IMG/VR virus record: IMGVR_UViG_3300046412_000056
Span: 1-22,944 of that record
Direction: 5' to 3' (one strand)
Length of the DNA: 22,944 bases
Source: a virus
Part shown: positions 637 to 22,938 of the stretch, piece by piece
Layout of the letters: each line of letters opens with the position of its first letter
How positions within the stretch are numbered: the stretch's first letter is position 1
The notes under the pieces: generated by a model
Told to the model about the DNA's origin: nothing
Database searches by the model: none
What the model saw: the letters and a program-made list of their open reading frames with translations, nothing else
Translations under genes and position numbers: made by a program

Positions 637-793
637 AGTTATAATCAATCCTTGTCAATAAATAAAGTTGAGAAAATGTTTAGCAACTGTAAAAAAAAAC
701 CTATAACTTTACCTTGTAAGTTTGACGCAGATCTGATAACCTAATACTTATTTGGTTAGAGCTGATTTGGAAGCCGACCCCCCGGGAGGCTGA

Positions 794-3766: not shown

Positions 3767-4296
3767 TATGGACATCCCGTTGTTGATGTAAATGCACCAC
3801 CATTCCAATATCTTAATTCGGTACCGTTTTGCGAACAACTTGCACAATAATACCATCCCGCTAATGCAGTAATACAATTACCACTTCCAGAATCCCTTAA
3901 TAATGCAGTTGCTGATGACCAAGTTGAATTATTAATATAAAACGTTTGACCTGGTTTTGCAGTACTACAATCTTGTGAAATTTGTTTATATAAACTAATT
4001 GCGGTGTAGTTAGAACAAGAATCTCCAATATCGTGGTCGTAGTCATACCATTCCGACATTTGATAAGGGTCATAAGTTCCAGCGATTGCTTCTGACTCGT
4101 TAGCTGGTCTAGGATAGTCTGGAGATAATACGTTGGTAGCATCATAAGATTCACCACTACCGTGTGTATTTCCGCCAACAAATAAATCGTATAAACTTAT
4201 AGGTCCAGTAATTGAAGAACTAGAGCTATAGTTGTCGTATTTCTTCTCTTTTGCTAAACCTAGCATAGATAATTGTCCACTAGCTGGTACTGCCAT
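3766..4296 (-). CDS. Cys-rich fibre-associated virion protein
   Basis: A 176-aa protein beginning MAVPASGQLSMLGLAKEKKYDNY, a start seen (from memory) in structural proteins of marine phages, then GPISLYDLFVGGN and a Tyr/Asp-rich middle. The C-terminal half carries six cysteines (94, 110, 141, 151, 154, 175), including a CASC pair. There is no signal peptide. The start lies 17 nt inside the end of the giant fibre gene, so the two are probably translated together, and the product may cap, adapt or chaperone the fibre. It is also followed by TAATG coupling to the zinc-ribbon gene. The function is inferred from context only. Confidence 0.6.
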   Translation of the reverse strand: MAVPASGQLSMLGLAKEKKYDNYSSSSSITGPISLYDLFVGGNTHGSGESYDATNVLSPDYPRPANESEAIAGTYDPYQMSEWYDYDHDIGDSCSNYTAISLYKQISQDCSTAKPGQTFYINNSTWSSATALLRDSGSGNCITALAGWYYCASCSQNGTELRYWNGGAFTSTTGCP

Positions 4297-7200
4297 CTAA
4301 TCTTCTTTTTAATTCGTCAATCTGTTCTTGTTGTTCTTTTATTGCTTCGATTAATACACCTACCATCTTTTCGTAGTCTACAGTTTTGTATTCTGTATCG
4401 TCTCCTAAACGTTTTTGTTCTCTAACAACTTCTGGAACTATTTTTTCTACTTCTTGTGCTATAAGACCAACTTCTGTTCTTCCTTTGCGTTCTCCATCTA
4501 TCCATTCATAAGAAACACCTTGTAGTTGTTTTACTTTTTCAAGTGAGTTTTCTAAAGGCTTGACGTTTGTTTTAAGTCTAGCATCTGAGAATGAATAGTA
4601 GGCAACAATATCACCAGCTGCGTGGAAATCTCCAGAAGCATTAAATAAACCTATTGTAGTCCTAGTAGCATCATTTAATGTGGTAAATTTAGCAAATTCC
4701 AACCCAGTATCTGTAACTACAAATCCGAAATTGTTATTTCCAGTACTAGACCAATTTCCACTACCCCTAGCTAATTTTAATCCAGAATACCATCCAGCAT
4801 ACCCTTGATTAGTTATCCATTGTTGTTGGTTTGTTCCGTTACCAATATGGAGAGGAACTACTGGTGAAGTAGTATTTATTCCTACGTTACTATGAAAATG
4901 CGTTTGAGAACGCATATTATAAACTTGAGAAACATTAGCTGTTTTTGTTGTAGTTCCACTATCATAAGTCAATATAACACCATCTGAAATTATAGCGTCT
5001 ATTGCATATTCAGCGTATGGTCCATATTCTATATTTACATTAAAATCTCCAGAACCTAAATCTTCAAAATTTACGCTTCTTATACCATTAGTATAACCTC
5101 CTTCTGTGTACCAGCTACCATTTAAATCATTATTATTATTAATCTGTGCAATAATAACAGTTCTACCTCCATCTTGACCACCTCCGTAAGATTCGTGACC
5201 TATAAGTTCAAATCTAACTCTAGCAGACTGACCAGCAATAACTCTAGCTATCTTCATCCATCCACTACTAGAAGCAGTATTATTTAAACGCCATACATAA
5301 TGTTTAGCGTTTCCGTCAGTCGTATATCCGTTAGTGCTATATAAATAACCGCTTGTAGCTAAAACATTACCGCTTGTATCTACTCTAAATCTTTCAGTAA
5401 AAGAACCAGTAGTACTTCCGTTTGCTATTTGAAGATTACCGTTATTATCTTGCCTAACTATTGTACCAACACTACTTTGTCTAAAGACTATGGCTGGATA
5501 GTTTGAAGCGTTTTCTAATAATAAAGTTGCATAACCCCAACTACCAAAAGCATCATTACTTCCTACGATATGCATTTTAGCTTCTGGATTAGTAGTATTT
5601 ACACCTACTCTACCATTAGACCTATTTAATGTAAATCTAGCACTTCCGCTTCCAGCGTCTTTTATGTAGAAATTAGTTGTACTTCCATCATCAGATTCAA
5701 GTATAACGCCTTCATTAGTATCGGTATGCATACGTAGAATTGACTTATCCTCATTACCAGATATAATACCTACTTCAGCATTACCACCTCCGCCATTTAC
5801 TTCAAGTTTATAACTAGGAGCATCAGTATTTATACCTACGTTACCTACGCTTGTAATACGCATTTTTTCTCCTCCAACATCTCCTATTGTAAAACCAGTA
5901 TTTGATGATGGACAAGATAAATCCCAATAATTATACGAAAGTTGTCTTATTCTTATTGTAGAAGCAGAACCGCTTGGCGTTTCAACTTCCAAATTTCTAT
6001 CTGGAGTTTCAGTTCCAATTCCAACTTTTCCGTCTTGAAGCACAGTTAATTTAGGTGCATCTGCCATTGAAATTTTGAAACCTCCAGCATTTACTGACAT
6101 TGAAATTTCTCCACTTAAATCATCATTTTGCCTTAAAACCATATAATCACCTCCAGCAAAATCTCCATTAGAGGCATCTAAATAAACAGAAGCTGAACCA
6201 GTACTAGTATTTCCTATGAACATTCCAGTATAATTCGTAGAACTACTTAATAGCCTAAATCCACTTGCAGACGAACCAGAATCTACATCTAGCTTGCTTA
6301 ATGGGTTTGTGTTTCCTATTCCTAAATTACCAGAAGAATTTAGAAGTAATCTTGTATTATTAGCGTCGTCATCATAGATCTGCCAATTACCAGATGCAGT
6401 AGAACTCACCACATAACATCTACCGCTTCCACCAGTAGAGTCTAAGTTTACAGAAGCTACATTACTGTTAGCTATATGCAATACTCTTTCTGTACTAGAT
6501 TGGTGCTGTACTGGAACTGTAATTCCTAAACCTAAGTTGTTGCTTATATGTGAGTAATTATACGCCCTAAAAGCAAAGTTTACATTTCCACTTGAATCTT
6601 GACCTCCAATATAAGTACCAGAACCAGTTTGTTGTAATCTTAAACTATGGTCAGTTGCAGCATCTAACGTTATTTTTATTTCTTGTGAGCTAGAACCGAA
6701 AAGTTCTAATTGAGTAGATGGAGTTGAAGTTCCGATTCCGACATATCCAGCATTAGTTATTCTAACCGCTTCTTTTAAGTCTGGAGTTCTACTTTGTTGA
6801 AATGTGTAAAAAGCCATTCCATTATTAGCACCATTAGAAGCTTCTGTTACAGTAGCTATTCTACCTCCTATATTTCCAGTATTATTTACGGAAGCATCAT
6901 TAGAACCAAAATCTAATTGAGCATTTATAGTTCCAATAGCTGTAACTGGATTTATACCACCTTCTATTTTCAATACACCAGCAATTCCATCTGCTGCTTT
7001 TACGTGCAATAATGCCTCTGGGTTATCAATCCCAATACCTACCTTACCTTCTGGGATATAAATATCACTACCATTTGCATCAATATAAAACTTTGAATCA
7101 GCACCATAAAATCCTACCGCAGCTAATTCTGCATTAGTGCTATCATACCATTTTATTTGCCCATAAGAATCAGTAGCTCCAGTTGAATTTGAATCTTTTA

Positions 7201-10189
7201 AATATAGTAATGGAGCAGTATTTGAAATGGTTAAATTACCTTCCATTGTATCTCCAGAAGGACCAGAAGAAACATAAGCACTAGCACTTAATGTAGTTAA
7301 TAAAGCGTATCCATTCCAAGTAAGCTTATCTCCAGCCTCAACAGATAATACTCCAGTATCATCAGTGTCTATATTTGTTATAGTGATTCCATCTACAGTT
7401 TGTCCAGTAGCAGAATGATTAAGCGTAATATCATCGTTAAAAGTAGCTGAACCGCTAAAAGTGTTTGCAGAAGCAAATGTAGCAGCTCCAGTTGATACAG
7501 AAAGACCCCCAGTTATATTAGTAGTTCCTCCACTTATAGAACCTCCAGAATTAAAACTAAATGACTCGTCGTTATTGATAACAATAGTTCCGTTCATTTT
7601 GAGAACGCCGTTATCTATATTTACGTCATCAGTTACCACTAAACCTCCGCCTATTTTAGTTGTTGAAAATGGGACAGCAGTTAATCCAGTAGGCTCTGTT
7701 GTGGTAGAACTAAAATAAGATGCATTAATATCGTTTTCAGCTGGTATTGCTAATATTTCTATTCCGCTATAATCTTCTCCTACTTTTATAACGAATACAT
7801 TAGCAGTTGTCCCACCTCCATATTTGAAGAACTCAAACTTCTCGCTATCTGGCTCGTTTATTTTATATAAGTCGTAATTAGCAATATTATTGTTTACCCC
7901 ATCACCTCTTGAGTGAACGTATAACCTATAGTGTAATTGACTATTTAAGTTTCCAATATCACGATGCCCAATTATGTCAATATAGTAGTAATTAGAACCA
8001 CCACTACCAGAAATATAAGGTATTTCAAATTCTATATATTTTGTTGTTGGCGTTGAACCCCAAGACGTACCATAAACTTTACGATAAAAATCTTGAGAGT
8101 CGATGCCATCTAAAGTATCAGCGTCTACGTTTAAAGCATCTACAAAGGCTTTGTTTACTCCGACAGACCAGTCTCCCCATCCGTAAGCAGTATCCCAATT
8201 AGATTTATTATATCCAGTAGCTGATAAAGTACCATTTATAGAAGTGTTACCTCCTAAAGTTATATCACCATTAGCTTGAAATCTAGCTAATAATTTGTCG
8301 TAAGTATCATCTTCACTATAATTACCACTACCGCTTAAAATAGCAAAAGAATCACTGGCGTCATTATCTCTGATTCCAATCACAACGTGACCAGATGACC
8401 TACCTTTAATCCAAGTACCAAAAGTTGACCCAGACAATAATCCAGTAATATCCGTATTACCACTTCCAAACTCACTATAAATAGTGTTTTTTATATTAGC
8501 TTCACCAGTAACAGTTAAATCCCCAGTAAGCGTATCAGTTGTGTTTAGTAAAAACTTTCCGTCTGCTTCTGTTTCCGTATAATAACGGTTATCTAACTGC
8601 CCAGCATCCAATTCCGTTTCCGTATAGTATCTGCCATCGTGATTATGTGAGTCATCAACAACCGCAGCAGTAAGCGTAACATTAGCAGAACCATCAATAG
8701 ATACGTTACCAGTTAAATCACCGCCTAAAGTAATCGTTCTAGCAGTTGCCCATTTAGAAGCAGTAGAAGCGTTACCAGTTAAAGCCCCAATAAAAGTAGG
8801 AGCGGTTACACTGTTATAAAAAAACGCCTTTGGCTTTGCAGAACCACCTTGCAATTTTAATGCTGTTTCTATATTCCCAGAAGTGGATTTTACTGAAAAA
8901 TCCATATCTGTTCTAACCGCACTATCATTAGTATCTATATCGATTCTTGCCCAAGTTTGTGGATTTCCATCAAAGTCTGTTTTAAAAACAAACTGCCCTA
9001 GTAATTCATTAGTAGTTGGATTATTACCACCTCTAAAAAATGTTATTAATGAGTTATCATTTTCTCTTGTTACTACAATGTCTTTATTGAAAGTAAAGTC
9101 ATCAGTAGCAGAAGCGTAAGTAAGTGTAGCTCCAGCCCCATTAATTGTAATACCAGCTCCATCAGCATCGGCAGCAGTAGTAGCCTCATCTGCTAAAACA
9201 ATATTCTTATCGTTTATAGTTACAGTAGTAGAGTTTACGGTTGTTGTAGTACCATCTACTCGTAAATCACCTAATATTTGTACTAAACCAGTATTATTTC
9301 CAAAAGCAGCTGGGTCAATAATAAACGTTTCTGGTCCTCTCAAATATCCGCTTGTAGTAATATTACCAGCAGAAATATCTCCTAAGGTCTTACTGTTTTT
9401 CCAAATACCGTTTGTACTATCGTAAACTAATAAATCCTTATCAGCAACAGAAGTAATACTAACATCGTGGTTATCGTGTAGATATTGTCCGTTTTCGCTT
9501 CTAACAAAAATAGTACCGTTACTCTTTTGGTTTACAGTAAACGCAACTTCTAATTTTGGATGTGGTGCAGTAGGTTCTGTTGTTTGCCATCCACCAGCAA
9601 CAGTTTCTGATACGTATAATTTACTTCCCTCAGCATATCCTAGAGTATTAAAACCTCTAACTTTACCAAACCAAGTTACTTTACCGTCTGTATCATAAGT
9701 AATATCTTCTGTGGTAACTCCTATAAAGTATTCAGCAGATACAGTACCATCAGCAATCATAGGAGCAATAGTAAGCCTACCAGAAGCACCTAAAGTACCA
9801 GTAACGTAAACTGGAGTTCCGTTAGGTATATCTTGACCTACTCCTTCTATTTGGTAATTATTTCTAACGTGAACGTGAACCTCTTGTCCTAATTGAAGCG
9901 TAGAACCATTAAGGATCACATCTACTGTTTCCTCATCATTATTCCAAGACATCTCTCCTTGTGTACCTGCTCCGCCACTTAATTGCAATAACGGTGTTAT
10001 TACTTTAGTGTTTATTGTGAATGTGCCGCTAAGTTGAGCGTCACCAGTATTATTTAAAGATAGACCAGTATCGTTTCCTAAACCATCTGTAACTACTTTA
10101 AAAGCTCCCGTCAAATTATCATTATCAGAGAGCTTTAACAGAGAGTCGTAAGTTGAGTTTATTGTTTTAGAGGTAAGAGTAATTCCCAT
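4280..10189 (-). CDS. Giant tail fibre with C-terminal S74 intramolecular chaperone
   Basis: 1969 aa, the longest gene here. The N-terminal part (about 1-240) looks like a virion-attachment region. A T4/cyanophage fibre-like segment follows (VNSTTVTINDKNIVLADEATT, about 318-338). NRYYTETE-type fibre repeats lie near 520-550. At least seven GIGTxxPxxxLxV-type repeats then recur between about 1045 and 1785. The end is a Peptidase_S74 domain: SDARLK puts the self-cleavage dyad at Ser1868 and Lys1873, followed by YEWIDG, GLIAQEVEKIVPEVV, YEKMVGVLIEAIKEQQEQI and a coiled coil. This domain trimerises the fibre and is then cut off. It presumably recognises the host surface. The ATG at 10189 follows the 39-aa gene by one base. 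Confidence 0.92.
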   Translation of the reverse strand: MGITLTSKTINSTYDSLLKLSDNDNLTGAFKVVTDGLGNDTGLSLNNTGDAQLSGTFTINTKVITPLLQLSGGAGTQGEMSWNNDEETVDVILNGSTLQLGQEVHVHVRNNYQIEGVGQDIPNGTPVYVTGTLGASGRLTIAPMIADGTVSAEYFIGVTTEDITYDTDGKVTWFGKVRGFNTLGYAEGSKLYVSETVAGGWQTTEPTAPHPKLEVAFTVNQKSNGTIFVRSENGQYLHDNHDVSITSVADKDLLVYDSTNGIWKNSKTLGDISAGNITTSGYLRGPETFIIDPAAFGNNTGLVQILGDLRVDGTTTTVNSTTVTINDKNIVLADEATTAADADGAGITINGAGATLTYASATDDFTFNKDIVVTRENDNSLITFFRGGNNPTTNELLGQFVFKTDFDGNPQTWARIDIDTNDSAVRTDMDFSVKSTSGNIETALKLQGGSAKPKAFFYNSVTAPTFIGALTGNASTASKWATARTITLGGDLTGNVSIDGSANVTLTAAVVDDSHNHDGRYYTETELDAGQLDNRYYTETEADGKFLLNTTDTLTGDLTVTGEANIKNTIYSEFGSGNTDITGLLSGSTFGTWIKGRSSGHVVIGIRDNDASDSFAILSGSGNYSEDDTYDKLLARFQANGDITLGGNTSINGTLSATGYNKSNWDTAYGWGDWSVGVNKAFVDALNVDADTLDGIDSQDFYRKVYGTSWGSTPTTKYIEFEIPYISGSGGSNYYYIDIIGHRDIGNLNSQLHYRLYVHSRGDGVNNNIANYDLYKINEPDSEKFEFFKYGGGTTANVFVIKVGEDYSGIEILAIPAENDINASYFSSTTTEPTGLTAVPFSTTKIGGGLVVTDDVNIDNGVLKMNGTIVINNDESFSFNSGGSISGGTTNITGGLSVSTGAATFASANTFSGSATFNDDITLNHSATGQTVDGITITNIDTDDTGVLSVEAGDKLTWNGYALLTTLSASAYVSSGPSGDTMEGNLTISNTAPLLYLKDSNSTGATDSYGQIKWYDSTNAELAAVGFYGADSKFYIDANGSDIYIPEGKVGIGIDNPEALLHVKAADGIAGVLKIEGGINPVTAIGTINAQLDFGSNDASVNNTGNIGGRIATVTEASNGANNGMAFYTFQQSRTPDLKEAVRITNAGYVGIGTSTPSTQLELFGSSSQEIKITLDAATDHSLRLQQTGSGTYIGGQDSSGNVNFAFRAYNYSHISNNLGLGITVPVQHQSSTERVLHIANSNVASVNLDSTGGSGRCYVVSSTASGNWQIYDDDANNTRLLLNSSGNLGIGNTNPLSKLDVDSGSSASGFRLLSSSTNYTGMFIGNTSTGSASVYLDASNGDFAGGDYMVLRQNDDLSGEISMSVNAGGFKISMADAPKLTVLQDGKVGIGTETPDRNLEVETPSGSASTIRIRQLSYNYWDLSCPSSNTGFTIGDVGGEKMRITSVGNVGINTDAPSYKLEVNGGGGNAEVGIISGNEDKSILRMHTDTNEGVILESDDGSTTNFYIKDAGSGSARFTLNRSNGRVGVNTTNPEAKMHIVGSNDAFGSWGYATLLLENASNYPAIVFRQSSVGTIVRQDNNGNLQIANGSTTGSFTERFRVDTSGNVLATSGYLYSTNGYTTDGNAKHYVWRLNNTASSSGWMKIARVIAGQSARVRFELIGHESYGGGQDGGRTVIIAQINNNNDLNGSWYTEGGYTNGIRSVNFEDLGSGDFNVNIEYGPYAEYAIDAIISDGVILTYDSGTTTKTANVSQVYNMRSQTHFHSNVGINTTSPVVPLHIGNGTNQQQWITNQGYAGWYSGLKLARGSGNWSSTGNNNFGFVVTDTGLEFAKFTTLNDATRTTIGLFNASGDFHAAGDIVAYYSFSDARLKTNVKPLENSLEKVKQLQGVSYEWIDGERKGRTEVGLIAQEVEKIVPEVVREQKRLGDDTEYKTVDYEKMVGVLIEAIKEQQEQIDELKRRLDGSTS

Positions 10190-16113: not shown

Positions 16114-17967
16114 TTAGCCTAATGAAGCGTCTCCAATAGTGTTTCTTTCCATCTCTTGAGCAGTAGTAACGTCTTTCGATACCATATAAGCTTTTATTGG
16201 TTGAGATAGTTGACTTCCTACCGCTTGAGCCAATAAATTGGTTTGAGATTGACCTACTATATTGAAGTCTGGTGCTTGAATACCTCCTCCAGTTGAAACA
16301 TTAGAAACTCCTCCAGTCATTGCTGAAGCTGAACTTTCGTATTTTTGAGCAGCAATAATCGCAATCTGAGCATACCCAGCAGCTCTCTCTAATACTTGAG
16401 CGGCTTTTGCTCTGAATGGAGAATCTGGAGATGGAATTGTGTATTGTGAAGCTCTAGCTTTAATTGAGTTTCCAGCAACATCAGCAATAGCTGTAGCTAA
16501 CTTAAATGCTTTCTCAATTCTAAATCTAGCTCTAGCAATCTTGTCTTGTTTTCTTCTTAAAGCCTCATCGTTTTGAGCAATTTGATTTTGTATTGCTTTT
16601 CTTTGGTCTGTTGATAGCTGTTCATTTCTCAACCTAGCCTTCAATTCATTATTAATAGCATTAGTTTTATTTTTTTCTGTTGCTATTTCTCTTTGAGCGG
16701 CAGCATCAACCAAGTCTCCAGCTATATTTACGTACTTCTTAAAGTTGTCTATTTTTTCTAATTTTTCTTTAAGGGGTCTAACAACGCTATCAACCATAGC
16801 TTGAACTGATTGTTCAACCTCCAACTGGTCCTCAGCGTCTCCAACAGTAAAGTCTATTATGTCGTTAACGCTTAATTCAGTTTTATTTCCACTAATCCTT
16901 TCTCTGAACTTTTTCTCTAATTTAGCGAATAGAGCGTCAAAAGTTTTATCTACAAAGCTTAAGTCAGCTTTTATCTCCTCTTCTTTTTTACAGTCTCCAA
17001 ACATTAAGCATAAAAACTTATTGCCTTGTAATCCAGCTACAGCTTTATCATACTCATCATTTACGATTTTTCTTTTTCGAGTTACAGCGTCTTGTAATTT
17101 CTTGATTTCTTCCTCTGTAGAGTTTTTTCTAACTTCAAACTCTTCTTTTATTTGTTGCTGAACTTCTTCCTTTGTGATTCTAACGGTTGACCCACCAGTT
17201 GATACAGATAATCCTTGAGCTTCTTCTATTCTTTTAGCGGTGGCTTCAGCATCCTCAGCTAATTTAGCTCTTAAGTTTATTTCTTTAACTATAGACTCTT
17301 GTAATGTTGAACTTAAAGATGCTTCATAAACATTAAACTCTAAAACTTTAGATCTAGCTTTTATATAATCATCTATACTTCCTATTGTAGCATCATAACC
17401 ATCCTTCTTAAGAGATCTCATAGCTGCTGTTTGCTTTTCTATAGAGGCTGTAGTATCATCTAATATACTCTTATAGTGTTCTAGTCGAAATATGAGTCCC
17501 TTAGCTTTAGCTAACTCTTTATTTAGGTCTTCTGATTCTTTCTTTGCTTTTTTATTAGCCATAGCGAATTTTTCAATAACCGCAATAACTACCTGGAATG
17601 CAACAATAACCCCAAGAGGGCCCATTAAAGCTTGACCCATAGCTTTAAGTCCATTCCCAACTCCTTTTGTTGTAGAAACTAAGGTGGCAAACAAAGTACC
17701 TAGCTGTGAAATGTTGTTGGCCATTGCTGTAAAACCGTAATTCGAATCCGAAATAGTACGACCTAATTCGGTAACAGCAGCTCCAGCTAACCCAGTTTTG
17801 TTTATGTTTTTGTTTAGCTCATTATTTGTGTCGGCTATTTTCTTTTTCAGCAAATCAGAAGCCCTACTAGCATCAATAAATCCTCTGGTTAATCCATCTA
17901 TTTTGACTTTACCGTTTGCGGTATTAACCCTAACGTTGTATAATATTTGTTTAGTCTCTGTTGCCAT
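16114..17967 (-). CDS. Tail tape measure protein
   Basis: 617 aa, largely alpha-helical and coiled coil. The N-terminal region has a SDSNYGFTAMANNISQLGTLFATLV segment and then a hydrophobic stretch at about 112-137 (ALMGPLGVIVAFQVVIAVIEKF). Long charged coiled coils run from 140 to 500. An Ala-rich segment follows (FKLATAIADVAGNSIKA...ERAAGYAQIAIIAAQKY) and a Gly/Ser-rich end. This is the standard tape measure layout: it fills the tail tube lumen and sets tail length. At the usual 1.5 angstrom per residue, the tail would be roughly 90 nm. The start lies 17 nt inside the end of a 52-aa gene. It is short for a siphophage. Confidence 0.88.
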   Translation of the reverse strand: MATETKQILYNVRVNTANGKVKIDGLTRGFIDASRASDLLKKKIADTNNELNKNINKTGLAGAAVTELGRTISDSNYGFTAMANNISQLGTLFATLVSTTKGVGNGLKAMGQALMGPLGVIVAFQVVIAVIEKFAMANKKAKKESEDLNKELAKAKGLIFRLEHYKSILDDTTASIEKQTAAMRSLKKDGYDATIGSIDDYIKARSKVLEFNVYEASLSSTLQESIVKEINLRAKLAEDAEATAKRIEEAQGLSVSTGGSTVRITKEEVQQQIKEEFEVRKNSTEEEIKKLQDAVTRKRKIVNDEYDKAVAGLQGNKFLCLMFGDCKKEEEIKADLSFVDKTFDALFAKLEKKFRERISGNKTELSVNDIIDFTVGDAEDQLEVEQSVQAMVDSVVRPLKEKLEKIDNFKKYVNIAGDLVDAAAQREIATEKNKTNAINNELKARLRNEQLSTDQRKAIQNQIAQNDEALRRKQDKIARARFRIEKAFKLATAIADVAGNSIKARASQYTIPSPDSPFRAKAAQVLERAAGYAQIAIIAAQKYESSASAMTGGVSNVSTGGGIQAPDFNIVGQSQTNLLAQAVGSQLSQPIKAYMVSKDVTTAQEMERNTIGDASLG

Positions 17968-21272: not shown

Positions 21273-21753
21273 TAGTTTTTATGTTTTTATCCAAAGCTTC
21301 GCTTAAATCTTTTTGGAATGCTTCAGCTATTTCTTTAGTTATGTAGTTTTTATATCGTTGTGTTACTTTGTCCACTAAGTTGCTTCCTCCTCCTTGAGCC
21401 ATAAACCTATCTATAGTCCCCTCTTTAGATATTTTACTAGCAATAGCAAAAGCCATTTGATTAAATGTCTTCGTTTTGCCTTTTATCTTCTTTGGCTTTA
21501 AGCCTTTTGCTTTAGCCCACTTTCGTATTTGATTGTAAGGAGCAACTTTGCTTGGAGCAGATCCTTGGTCAACATACTTTATTCTCCAATCAGCTAAGAT
21601 GTCTAAATTGAATTTGTCTACATTATATTCCAAACTTTTAGCTAAATTTCCAGTAGCATAAGTCTTATCCGCCTTCATTTGAGACTGTAACTTCTGGTAT
21701 AGAAGCTTACCAATTTTACCTAACGCAGCTCTTGTGTAAAAGGAGTTTAACAT
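21262..21753 (-). CDS. HK97 gp10-like head-tail connector protein
   Basis: 163 aa, basic. A helical N-terminus (LGKIGKLLYQKLQSQMKAD) is followed by ATGNLAKSLEYNV, then WRIKYVDQGSAPSKVAPYNQIRKWAKAKGLKPKK and a C-terminal helix (ITKEIAEAFQKDLSEALDKN). The order of a G-L-x-S-L strand, a Y-x-x-x-G segment, and then I-x-x-W-x-x-x-K-G is that of HK97 gp10-like neck/tail completion proteins. It joins the head to the tail. It overlaps the upstream terminator-like gene by 7 nt. Function by recalled pattern, not search. Confidence 0.68.
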   Translation of the reverse strand: MLNSFYTRAALGKIGKLLYQKLQSQMKADKTYATGNLAKSLEYNVDKFNLDILADWRIKYVDQGSAPSKVAPYNQIRKWAKAKGLKPKKIKGKTKTFNQMAFAIASKISKEGTIDRFMAQGGGSNLVDKVTQRYKNYITKEIAEAFQKDLSEALDKNIKTNGN

Positions 21754-22208
21754 ATACTGAATGTATTAGGGACTCTAATGGTAAAACTAGCACCCCATCC
21801 AGCTAACATATTCTCATACTTGTCAACTAGCTTTTCTACAGTTGGCTCATTTACTAACTGTACTTGGTTGTCAAATAAGCTACCTCTTTGTAAAGAAGTA
21901 ACAATATCAGAAACAACTCCAAGTTGAGTGTTTAAAACGTCAACTAGGTTATCATTCCCGTAAAAAGGCTTTGTCTTATCGTCTTTCTTTGTAATGTCTA
22001 CAATGTCTAAAACCATAAGCGAAATAGAAAACTCAATAACGTTATCCACAAACGTAATATTAGGAGCTATATCTAAGTGGGCTAATGGATACATTTCAGT
22101 CTTGTCGAGGTCTATTTCGTCCAGATCACCGAACTTAACGGAGAACACATTAGGATTATCCATCAGCTTATCTCTTAGTTTGTCTAATATGTCGTATACT
22201 TGTGTCAT
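21747..22208 (-). CDS. Tail terminator-like protein
   Basis: 153 aa. The N-terminal helix (YDILDKLRDKLMDNPNV) is followed by strands and an acidic middle, then FYGNDNLVDVLNTQLGVVSDIVTSLQRGSLFD and a final LAGWGASFTIRVPNTFSIC strand. Small alpha/beta proteins with this ending (AGWxAxFTIxVPN) are common in Bacteroidetes phage tail operons, and the shape fits a tail terminator or completion protein that caps the tube. Its start overlaps the end of the -1 frame chaperone (ATGA at 22208-22205). No specific motif proves the function. Confidence 0.6.
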   Translation of the reverse strand: MTQVYDILDKLRDKLMDNPNVFSVKFGDLDEIDLDKTEMYPLAHLDIAPNITFVDNVIEFSISLMVLDIVDITKKDDKTKPFYGNDNLVDVLNTQLGVVSDIVTSLQRGSLFDNQVQLVNEPTVEKLVDKYENMLAGWGASFTIRVPNTFSIC

Positions 22209-22938
22209 TTGTATTGTTGTTTAATCATTTTTGCTTCAAGTTCGTTCTTTTCTTTCTCAAACGTAAGCCAAGTTAGGCATTTATGTATGTTTAACTTTGT
22301 AACCTCATCTAGTCTTCTAACGTCTCCTTTAGAGATGCTATAAATGGATTGATACCATCCCCATCTTCTCCCAAAATTTCCTTCAATGGAATATTGTCCG
22401 AATCCATCTCCTTCTTCAGAGTAGAGGCTATCGTATGTTCTGCTAATTTCTTGCCTAAACGATAAAAAAAAACCAACGCACCTAAAGCAACGTTTACTGG
22501 AGCGTCTTTCATCACATCAGCCCACTTGTCTGTACCCTCATATTCTTCTATCAAATACATACCTTTCTTACTGAAGGTAATTGGTCTGTATAAAACAGCC
22601 ATAGCTTTGTGCATATTACTCCAACCTTGTATATATCCATCTAAATCGACATATTCTCCTAAAGACATATCATCTAGCTTAGGCATAAAACCAAACTTAA
22701 CCTCAACACCGTCAGTCCCAATCATTGAGAACTCTCTAATTAAAGGTGTGTCTTCGCTAAAACATTTCGATATCTGATTTAATACAGCATCAAATGCTTT
22801 TAAAGGAAGTTTATAGCTCTCCTTCAAGCTTAATCCACAGAAGATGTCTAGCATCTTCAAGCTTAAGAAATCATTCTGTTCCTTAGTGTTTAATACATTG
22901 CCTTCTTCATCTCGCTCCAACCCATCGTATACTTTCAT
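22205..22938 (-). CDS. Predicted frameshifted tail assembly chaperone fusion (gpGT-like)
   Basis: The zero frame (209 aa, ending at 22309) overlaps an open -1 frame that continues to a TGA at 22207-22205. If ribosomes slip back one base at U-UUG-GGA (22375-22369), the product is 244 aa: 190 zero-frame residues, then RRWGWYQSIYSISKGDVRRL and on to EVTKLNIHKCLTWLTFEKEK...IKQQYK. The -1 segment has no start of its own, reads as a good protein (Trp/Tyr helix, charged coiled coil), and ends in ATGA overlap with the next gene. This is the G/GT arrangement of siphophage tail chaperones, where the longer form recruits tube subunits to the tape measure. Confidence 0.7.
22309..22938 (-). CDS. Tail assembly chaperone, short form (gpG-like)
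   Basis: 209 aa. The N-terminal half has KMLDIFCGLSLKESYKLPLKAFDAVLNQISKCF and a DDMSLGEYVDLDGYIQGW segment (positions about 112-129), typical of tail chaperone G-type proteins. A hydrophobic NVALGALVFFYRLGKKLA helix follows at about 149-166, then an amphipathic helix and EILGEDGDGINPFIASL. It coats the tape measure during tail assembly and is not in the virion. It is upstream of terminator and tape measure genes. The start at 22938 lies six bases from the window edge, so a longer gene beyond the edge cannot be excluded. Confidence 0.65.
   Translation of the reverse strand: MKVYDGLERDEEGNVLNTKEQNDFLSLKMLDIFCGLSLKESYKLPLKAFDAVLNQISKCFSEDTPLIREFSMIGTDGVEVKFGFMPKLDDMSLGEYVDLDGYIQGWSNMHKAMAVLYRPITFSKKGMYLIEEYEGTDKWADVMKDAPVNVALGALVFFYRLGKKLAEHTIASTLKKEMDSDNIPLKEILGEDGDGINPFIASLKETLED
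22369..22375 (-). promoter_or_regulatory. Candidate -1 slippery heptamer (U UUG GGA)
   Basis: In the zero frame the codons are ATT TTG GGA, so the last T plus TTG GGA has the X-XXY-YYZ form. Eight bases downstream a short stem can form (GGATGG with CCAUUU, 7-nt loop, two G-U pairs). A competing heptamer lies in a T9 run at 22472-22464 (GTT TTT TTT TAT). I prefer the later site because the zero frame between the two reads as an orderly helix. Confidence 0.45.

Follow-up and report, generated by a model that had tools for sequence, protein, structure and literature searches.

A conserved T9 run is the probable recoding site of a putative tail-assembly chaperone pair in a large, mostly uncultured group of phages

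Results

We analyze IMG/VR virus record IMGVR_UViG_3300046412_000056, a stretch of 22,944 bases referred to here as the window. Close to its end, on the minus strand, a frame encoding a G-like protein (the 0-frame) overlaps a second frame, offset by -1, that lacks a start codon of its own and runs to the beginning of the next gene; a run of nine T's lies within the overlap (Table 1). The 0-frame closes with a TAG at 22311-22309 (-). The -1 frame, whose last stop upstream of the slip lies at 22519-22517, stays open from 22516 until a TGA at 22207-22205. A preliminary description of this DNA had read the locus as a programmed -1 frameshift joining two chaperone frames, and the coordinates that it gave for the 0-frame stop, the -1 frame, the ATGA overlap, the T9 run and a second slippery heptamer, T TTG GGA, all agree with the sequence. 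Two of its lengths need correction. The 0-frame gene does end at 22309, but its 209 residues reflect the window edge, which cuts the gene: in a sister contig (L002) identical to the window over 3,737 bases, the gene starts 25 codons earlier, past the window edge, and its full length is 234 aa. The extension that a standard gene call would miss is likewise real, but it comprises 88 codons counted from the T run rather than the 54-86 residues first estimated.

Table 1. Features of the recoded locus and its surroundings in the window
Feature	Position	Strand	Remarks
0-frame ORF (G-like protein)	22309..22938	-	209 aa from the first ATG within the window
-1 frame extension (T-like segment)	22205..22471	-	88 codons, FFLSFRQE...WGWYQSIYSISKGD...MIKQQYK, then TGA
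T9 run, probable recoding site	22464..22472	-	holds the 0-frame heptamer T TTT TTT, 22471-22465
TAG in the third (+1) frame	22455..22457	-	just after the slip
T TTG GGA heptamer	22369..22375	-	not conserved; rejected as shift site
Next gene	21747..22208	-	153 aa; ATG (22208) overlaps the -1 TGA as ATGA
617-aa protein in tape-measure position	16114..17967	-	C-terminus resembles P12024L gp50

Downstream of the pair lie four genes of unknown families, followed by the 617-aa tape-measure candidate. The protein that the C-terminus of this candidate resembles, gp50 of Nonlabens phage P12024L, matches tape-measure profiles. Farther on are a protein that matches maturation proteases, a capsid-like protein and the portal. 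The window also encodes a tail fibre of 1,969 aa (4280-10189, minus strand) with many tail-fibre profile matches; its C-terminal 120 residues presumably resemble an intramolecular-chaperone end. A second T9 run, at 691-699 (-), lies where no ORF is listed on the minus strand and is possibly a terminator.

The -1 segment is conserved as protein. A 54-residue query retrieved 513 related stretches from IMG/VR, and because the best 80 of these 513 all match at E <= 7e-22, the similarity is far beyond chance; a second, more divergent query found at least 588. The consensus begins FF[LF]xF[RK]..., continues through a variable linker and ends FGxKWGWYQSIYALAxGD...VT...CL..L.FEKEKNELEAK.IK. Across 86 non-redundant loci (below 80% nucleotide identity), stops in the -1 frame occur before the T run, and the 12 codons from the run onwards contain none, the check by which the preliminary description proposed that its reading might fail. 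Conservation switches at the same point. Upstream of the run it is the 0-frame that is conserved, with little conservation in the -1 frame; the latter becomes conserved exactly at the run, with the pattern F, F, L/F, x, F, R/K. Between the last -1 stop and the slip, no ATG, GTG or TTG is found in the -1 frame of 76 of the 86 loci. The earlier claim that this frame is protein-coding without its own start is thus borne out by both the relatives and the lack of start codons, and an overlapping -1 ORF of this sort, conserved as protein, is a feature of the gpG/gpGT type.

The geometry of the overlap is also maintained. Measured from the slip, the 0-frame stop lies at a median of ~59 codons and the -1 stop at a median of 86 codons, and in 86/86 non-redundant loci a stop ends the third (+1) frame within 40 nt. 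In 59 of 84 loci an ATGA joins the -1 stop to the ATG of the next gene; in most of the remaining ones the two are at most 5 nt apart.

Aligning homologous loci, as had been suggested, decides which of the two candidate heptamers is kept: it is the T run and not TTTGGGA. Among 226 distinct loci the run measures T9 in 203, T10 in 22 and T12 in one, and is never shorter; its register yields T TTT TTT in every one of them. In the set of 80 best-matching loci, it is present in all 78 that extend far enough upstream, the other two sequences reaching the end of their contig before the run. Loci with the run include members that share only ~15% identity in the 0-frame protein. Both phenylalanines at the run are encoded by TTT in 145/145 loci, whereas phenylalanines upstream of it use TTT in only 65%; the residue that follows the two varies among Tyr, Trp, Cys, Phe and Leu. 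A conserved slippery site of at least nine T's within the overlap is a further gpG/gpGT-type feature.

We find no conserved RNA structure up- or downstream of the run. Folding of 54 diverse loci gave a mean z of about -0.2, the same as for control windows, in a score confined to simple, pseudoknot-free structures. The stem noted earlier downstream of T TTG GGA is predicted to form, but it is not a conserved feature. A TTTAG that follows the run was considered as a separate conserved signal and dropped, since it is missing in four loci (L119, L190, L194 and L195) and follows from the coding of L-G and F-R in two frames.

Identification of the pair as tail-assembly chaperones is an analogy to the layout of lambda gpG/gpGT, because the fold and profile matches are weak and homology is undetected. 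The preliminary description had called the frames chaperones that mirror gpG/gpGT; layout and weak fold matches are consistent with this, but no sequence homology to known tail chaperones was found in Pfam or the PDB. PHROGs yielded nothing decisive in this respect. The 0-frame protein, a conserved family with 55 members aligned, matches phrog_32199 (E 2.3e-15), of unknown function, and 4 of the 55 members weakly match phrog_166, 'tail protein' (best E 6.5e-4). An AlphaFold model of the 0-frame protein has a mean pLDDT of 76, with low confidence for most of residues 177-209, which lie after the slip; such a tail would be expected if constraint after the slip is weak. The best PDB fold match of this model is the HK97 tail assembly chaperone 2OB9, at E = 0.3 and a TM of about 0.2-0.3. 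Against BFVD it matches its own relatives and then, weakly, tape-measure and tail-assembly chaperone entries (E 0.03-0.36). The -1 segment is predicted to be all-helical with moderate confidence (68).

Judging by protein length, one of the weak fold matches likely belongs to gp10 of Flavobacterium phage 6H (L210; 10352-10927, 191 aa). In this phage, an unannotated -1 frame without an obvious start follows gp10 in the 300-base gap to gp09 and ends ...ITKRSLDEEAAYKKLEKK; a shift into it would need to fall near the gp10 stop, and there is no T9 run. As an outgroup, 6H decides nothing on the mechanism, because its chaperone-like gene is without the T9.

No isolates match the -1 segment other than two Nonlabens phages, P12024S and P12024L. 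In P12024L, gp40 contains the same T9, and the -1 segment ends in the gene annotated as gp41; the two are annotated as separate hypothetical genes, with the gp41 start codon chosen inside the -1 segment. We propose that gp41 of NC_018272 (L123, 3438-3605) most probably forms the C-terminal portion of a recoded gp40 fusion. The phage group is large and almost entirely uncultured, and its hosts are probably flavobacteria-like Bacteroidota. A search of 84,980 genomes produced a sole match, an 11-kb contig (L124) of a metagenome-assembled genome, UBA10404, from the Bacteroidetes; these phages therefore seem to be rarely or never prophages in that genome collection.

Discussion

Our data strongly support programmed -1 recoding that joins the two frames. 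Standard reading of 22938-22309 would give the short G-like protein, while a fraction of expression would slip one base back at the T9 and continue for 88 codons in the -1 frame, as far as the start of the next gene, yielding a G-T-like fusion. We are highly confident that recoding at the T9 gives a short and a fused product; this confidence attaches to the recoding as such and not to its taking place on the ribosome. What the sequences show is the site, its register, the conserved -1 protein and the lack of a conserved RNA structure; expression of the two products, the efficiency of the slip, the chaperone function and the level at which slipping takes place are inferred. Only a shift at the T run, or adjacent to it, accounts for these loci: -1 stops and conservation switch there, and most loci offer no start codon in that frame before it.

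Three other readings of the locus fare poorly. A shift at T TTG GGA, aided by the stem downstream, has in its favor that this heptamer is a canonical X XXY YYZ, in frame and close to the conserved WGWY, but we regard it as very improbable: conservation of the -1 frame begins ~32 codons before it, and its bases merely encode the conserved -1 residues F-G. TTTGGG occurs in 2 of the 80 loci, one being the identical sister contig; TTTGGGA is unique to this phage, L081 has TTTGGGC, and relatives that are 87% identical in the segment read TTTTGGAAGA at that position. The alignment thus rules TTTGGGA out as the shift site and marks it as an accident of this genome; of the two heptamers put forward in the preliminary description, it is T TTT TTT that holds. 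It is also very unlikely that the -1 segment forms a gene apart and begins at a start codon of its own, as the RefSeq annotation of P12024L gp41 has it, because the great majority of loci offer no start codon upstream of the slip and an internal start would remove conserved residues from a segment whose conservation begins at the T run. Least probable of all is a pseudogene with a frameshift mutation or a sequencing error. A T9 is indeed error-prone, but many metagenomes, which contribute the 226 distinct loci, and the genome of a cultured phage show the same arrangement, and this recurrence refutes the idea.

Whether the recoding at the T9 occurs on the ribosome or on RNA polymerase is a closer call. 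The ribosomal route would be tandem slippage of tRNA-Phe at U UUU UUU, unaided by any strong RNA stimulator. A heptamer of the form X XXY YYZ lies in the 0-frame register in all loci examined, and the downstream stem-loop or pseudoknot that is common, although not obligatory, at ribosomal sites was not found among simple structures in 54 loci. Some tailed-phage shifts operate without stimulators (review, PMC5009743), and the UUUUUUC shift predicted for SPP1 genes 17.5/17.5* is a precedent in favor of the ribosome (PMC6316719). On the other side, the heptamer needs only seven T's, yet 0 of 226 loci have seven or eight, which counts against the ribosomal level. As an alternative, the host RNA polymerase would add one U (T9 to U10) in some mRNAs, whose normal translation would give the fusion, and on mRNAs that lose one U, translation would pass into the third frame and terminate immediately. 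This account suits a run that has nine or more T's and is never reduced to seven or eight, the lack of a conserved RNA stimulator, and a third frame that is shut so soon in every non-redundant locus. Genome searches for bacterial transcriptional slippage have used a length of nine A or T (PMC1088944), and the RNA polymerase of E. coli begins to slip at seven T's, favors poly(T) and, in a reporter with T7/T8, reaches 5-10% (PMC6260861). In Shigella mxiE, an extra nucleotide within a U run leads to the longer product (PMC1088944).

Long homopolymers are, in addition, depleted elsewhere in these phages. We compared 889 other genes, from 62 sequence pieces (the window, L209 and L320-L379), with synonymous shuffles: A9 was observed 7 times vs 29 expected, A>=10 was absent vs 19 expected, and T>=9 occurred once, itself in another chaperone fragment, vs 8 expected. 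Given this depletion and the T>=9 in all loci, such runs are avoided in other coding DNA and fixed at the recoding site, as would suit transcriptional slippage at a homopolymer of about nine A/T and of conserved length. The depletion is nonetheless graded, with its sharpest drop, for A, on going from 8 to 9 bases and with an onset, for T runs, already at five to seven, and it may have other causes. The two outer T's of the run may come from the amino acids encoded there, V/L/I/F before and Y/W/C/F/L after, and the third-frame stop sits in the TTTAG that dual coding can explain. Known tail-chaperone cases, moreover, are attributed to ribosomes. The argument that T's beyond the heptamer prove a polymerase mechanism was discarded, as other columns are equally T-invariant through amino-acid constraint (100% T at codon position 2 in other hydrophobic columns and 100% T at position 1 in Tyr columns).

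Because the depletion is graded and amino-acid constraint may account for the outer T's, our verdict is near even and slightly ribosomal. We consider the ribosome the most likely level, by a slight preference, and a substantial contribution from RNA polymerase, through one extra U at the T9, nearly as likely; both may slip at the same run. That the fusion is made mainly by programmed polymerase slippage seems less probable, albeit a serious prospect, and if true, this would be the first such tail-chaperone pair as far as we could find. The programmed -1 frameshift of the preliminary description therefore stands as a joining of frames at a T9 kept in all distinct loci, but not in its specifically ribosomal sense, since T>=9 is also a classical sequence for transcriptional slippage.

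A recoded tail-chaperone pair is a known kind of gene arrangement. As in lambda gpG/gpGT and other dsDNA-phage chaperones, the two products here would share an N-terminus, one of them would carry a -1 extension, and the pair lies among structural genes. The lambda shift site is G GGA AAG, unlike the T>=9 found here, and in contrast to lambda, most loci have the shift ~60 codons ahead of the 0-frame stop, several genes separate the pair from the presumed tape measure, and sequence homology is undetected. Genes 17.5/17.5* of SPP1, for which a -1 shift at UUUUUUC is predicted for the same type of protein pair, share the Phe-Phe slippery codons and the predicted chaperone role (PMC6316719), but that heptamer ends in C, no T9 run is described, and homology was not found. 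Shigella mxiE/spa13 and Thermus dnaX likewise obtain two products from one gene at an A/T homopolymer (PMC1088944, PMC5009743); they encode unrelated proteins, and slippage was shown there by experiment, whereas the case here is sequence-based.

We found no description of this family, its invariant T>=9 site or the conserved overlap that links it to the following gene in the literature searched, which left most subscription journals outside. The loci define a family of recoded genes that is large and so far unannotated, mostly in uncultured phages, for which the isolate P12024L offers a testable system. They bear a strict signature that gene callers miss, a T9 in register and a -1 stop linked to the ATG of the following gene. 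In lambda, the G:GT ratio must be balanced for tail assembly. Our findings make it testable whether a phage sets this ratio via the RNA polymerase of its host instead of the ribosome.
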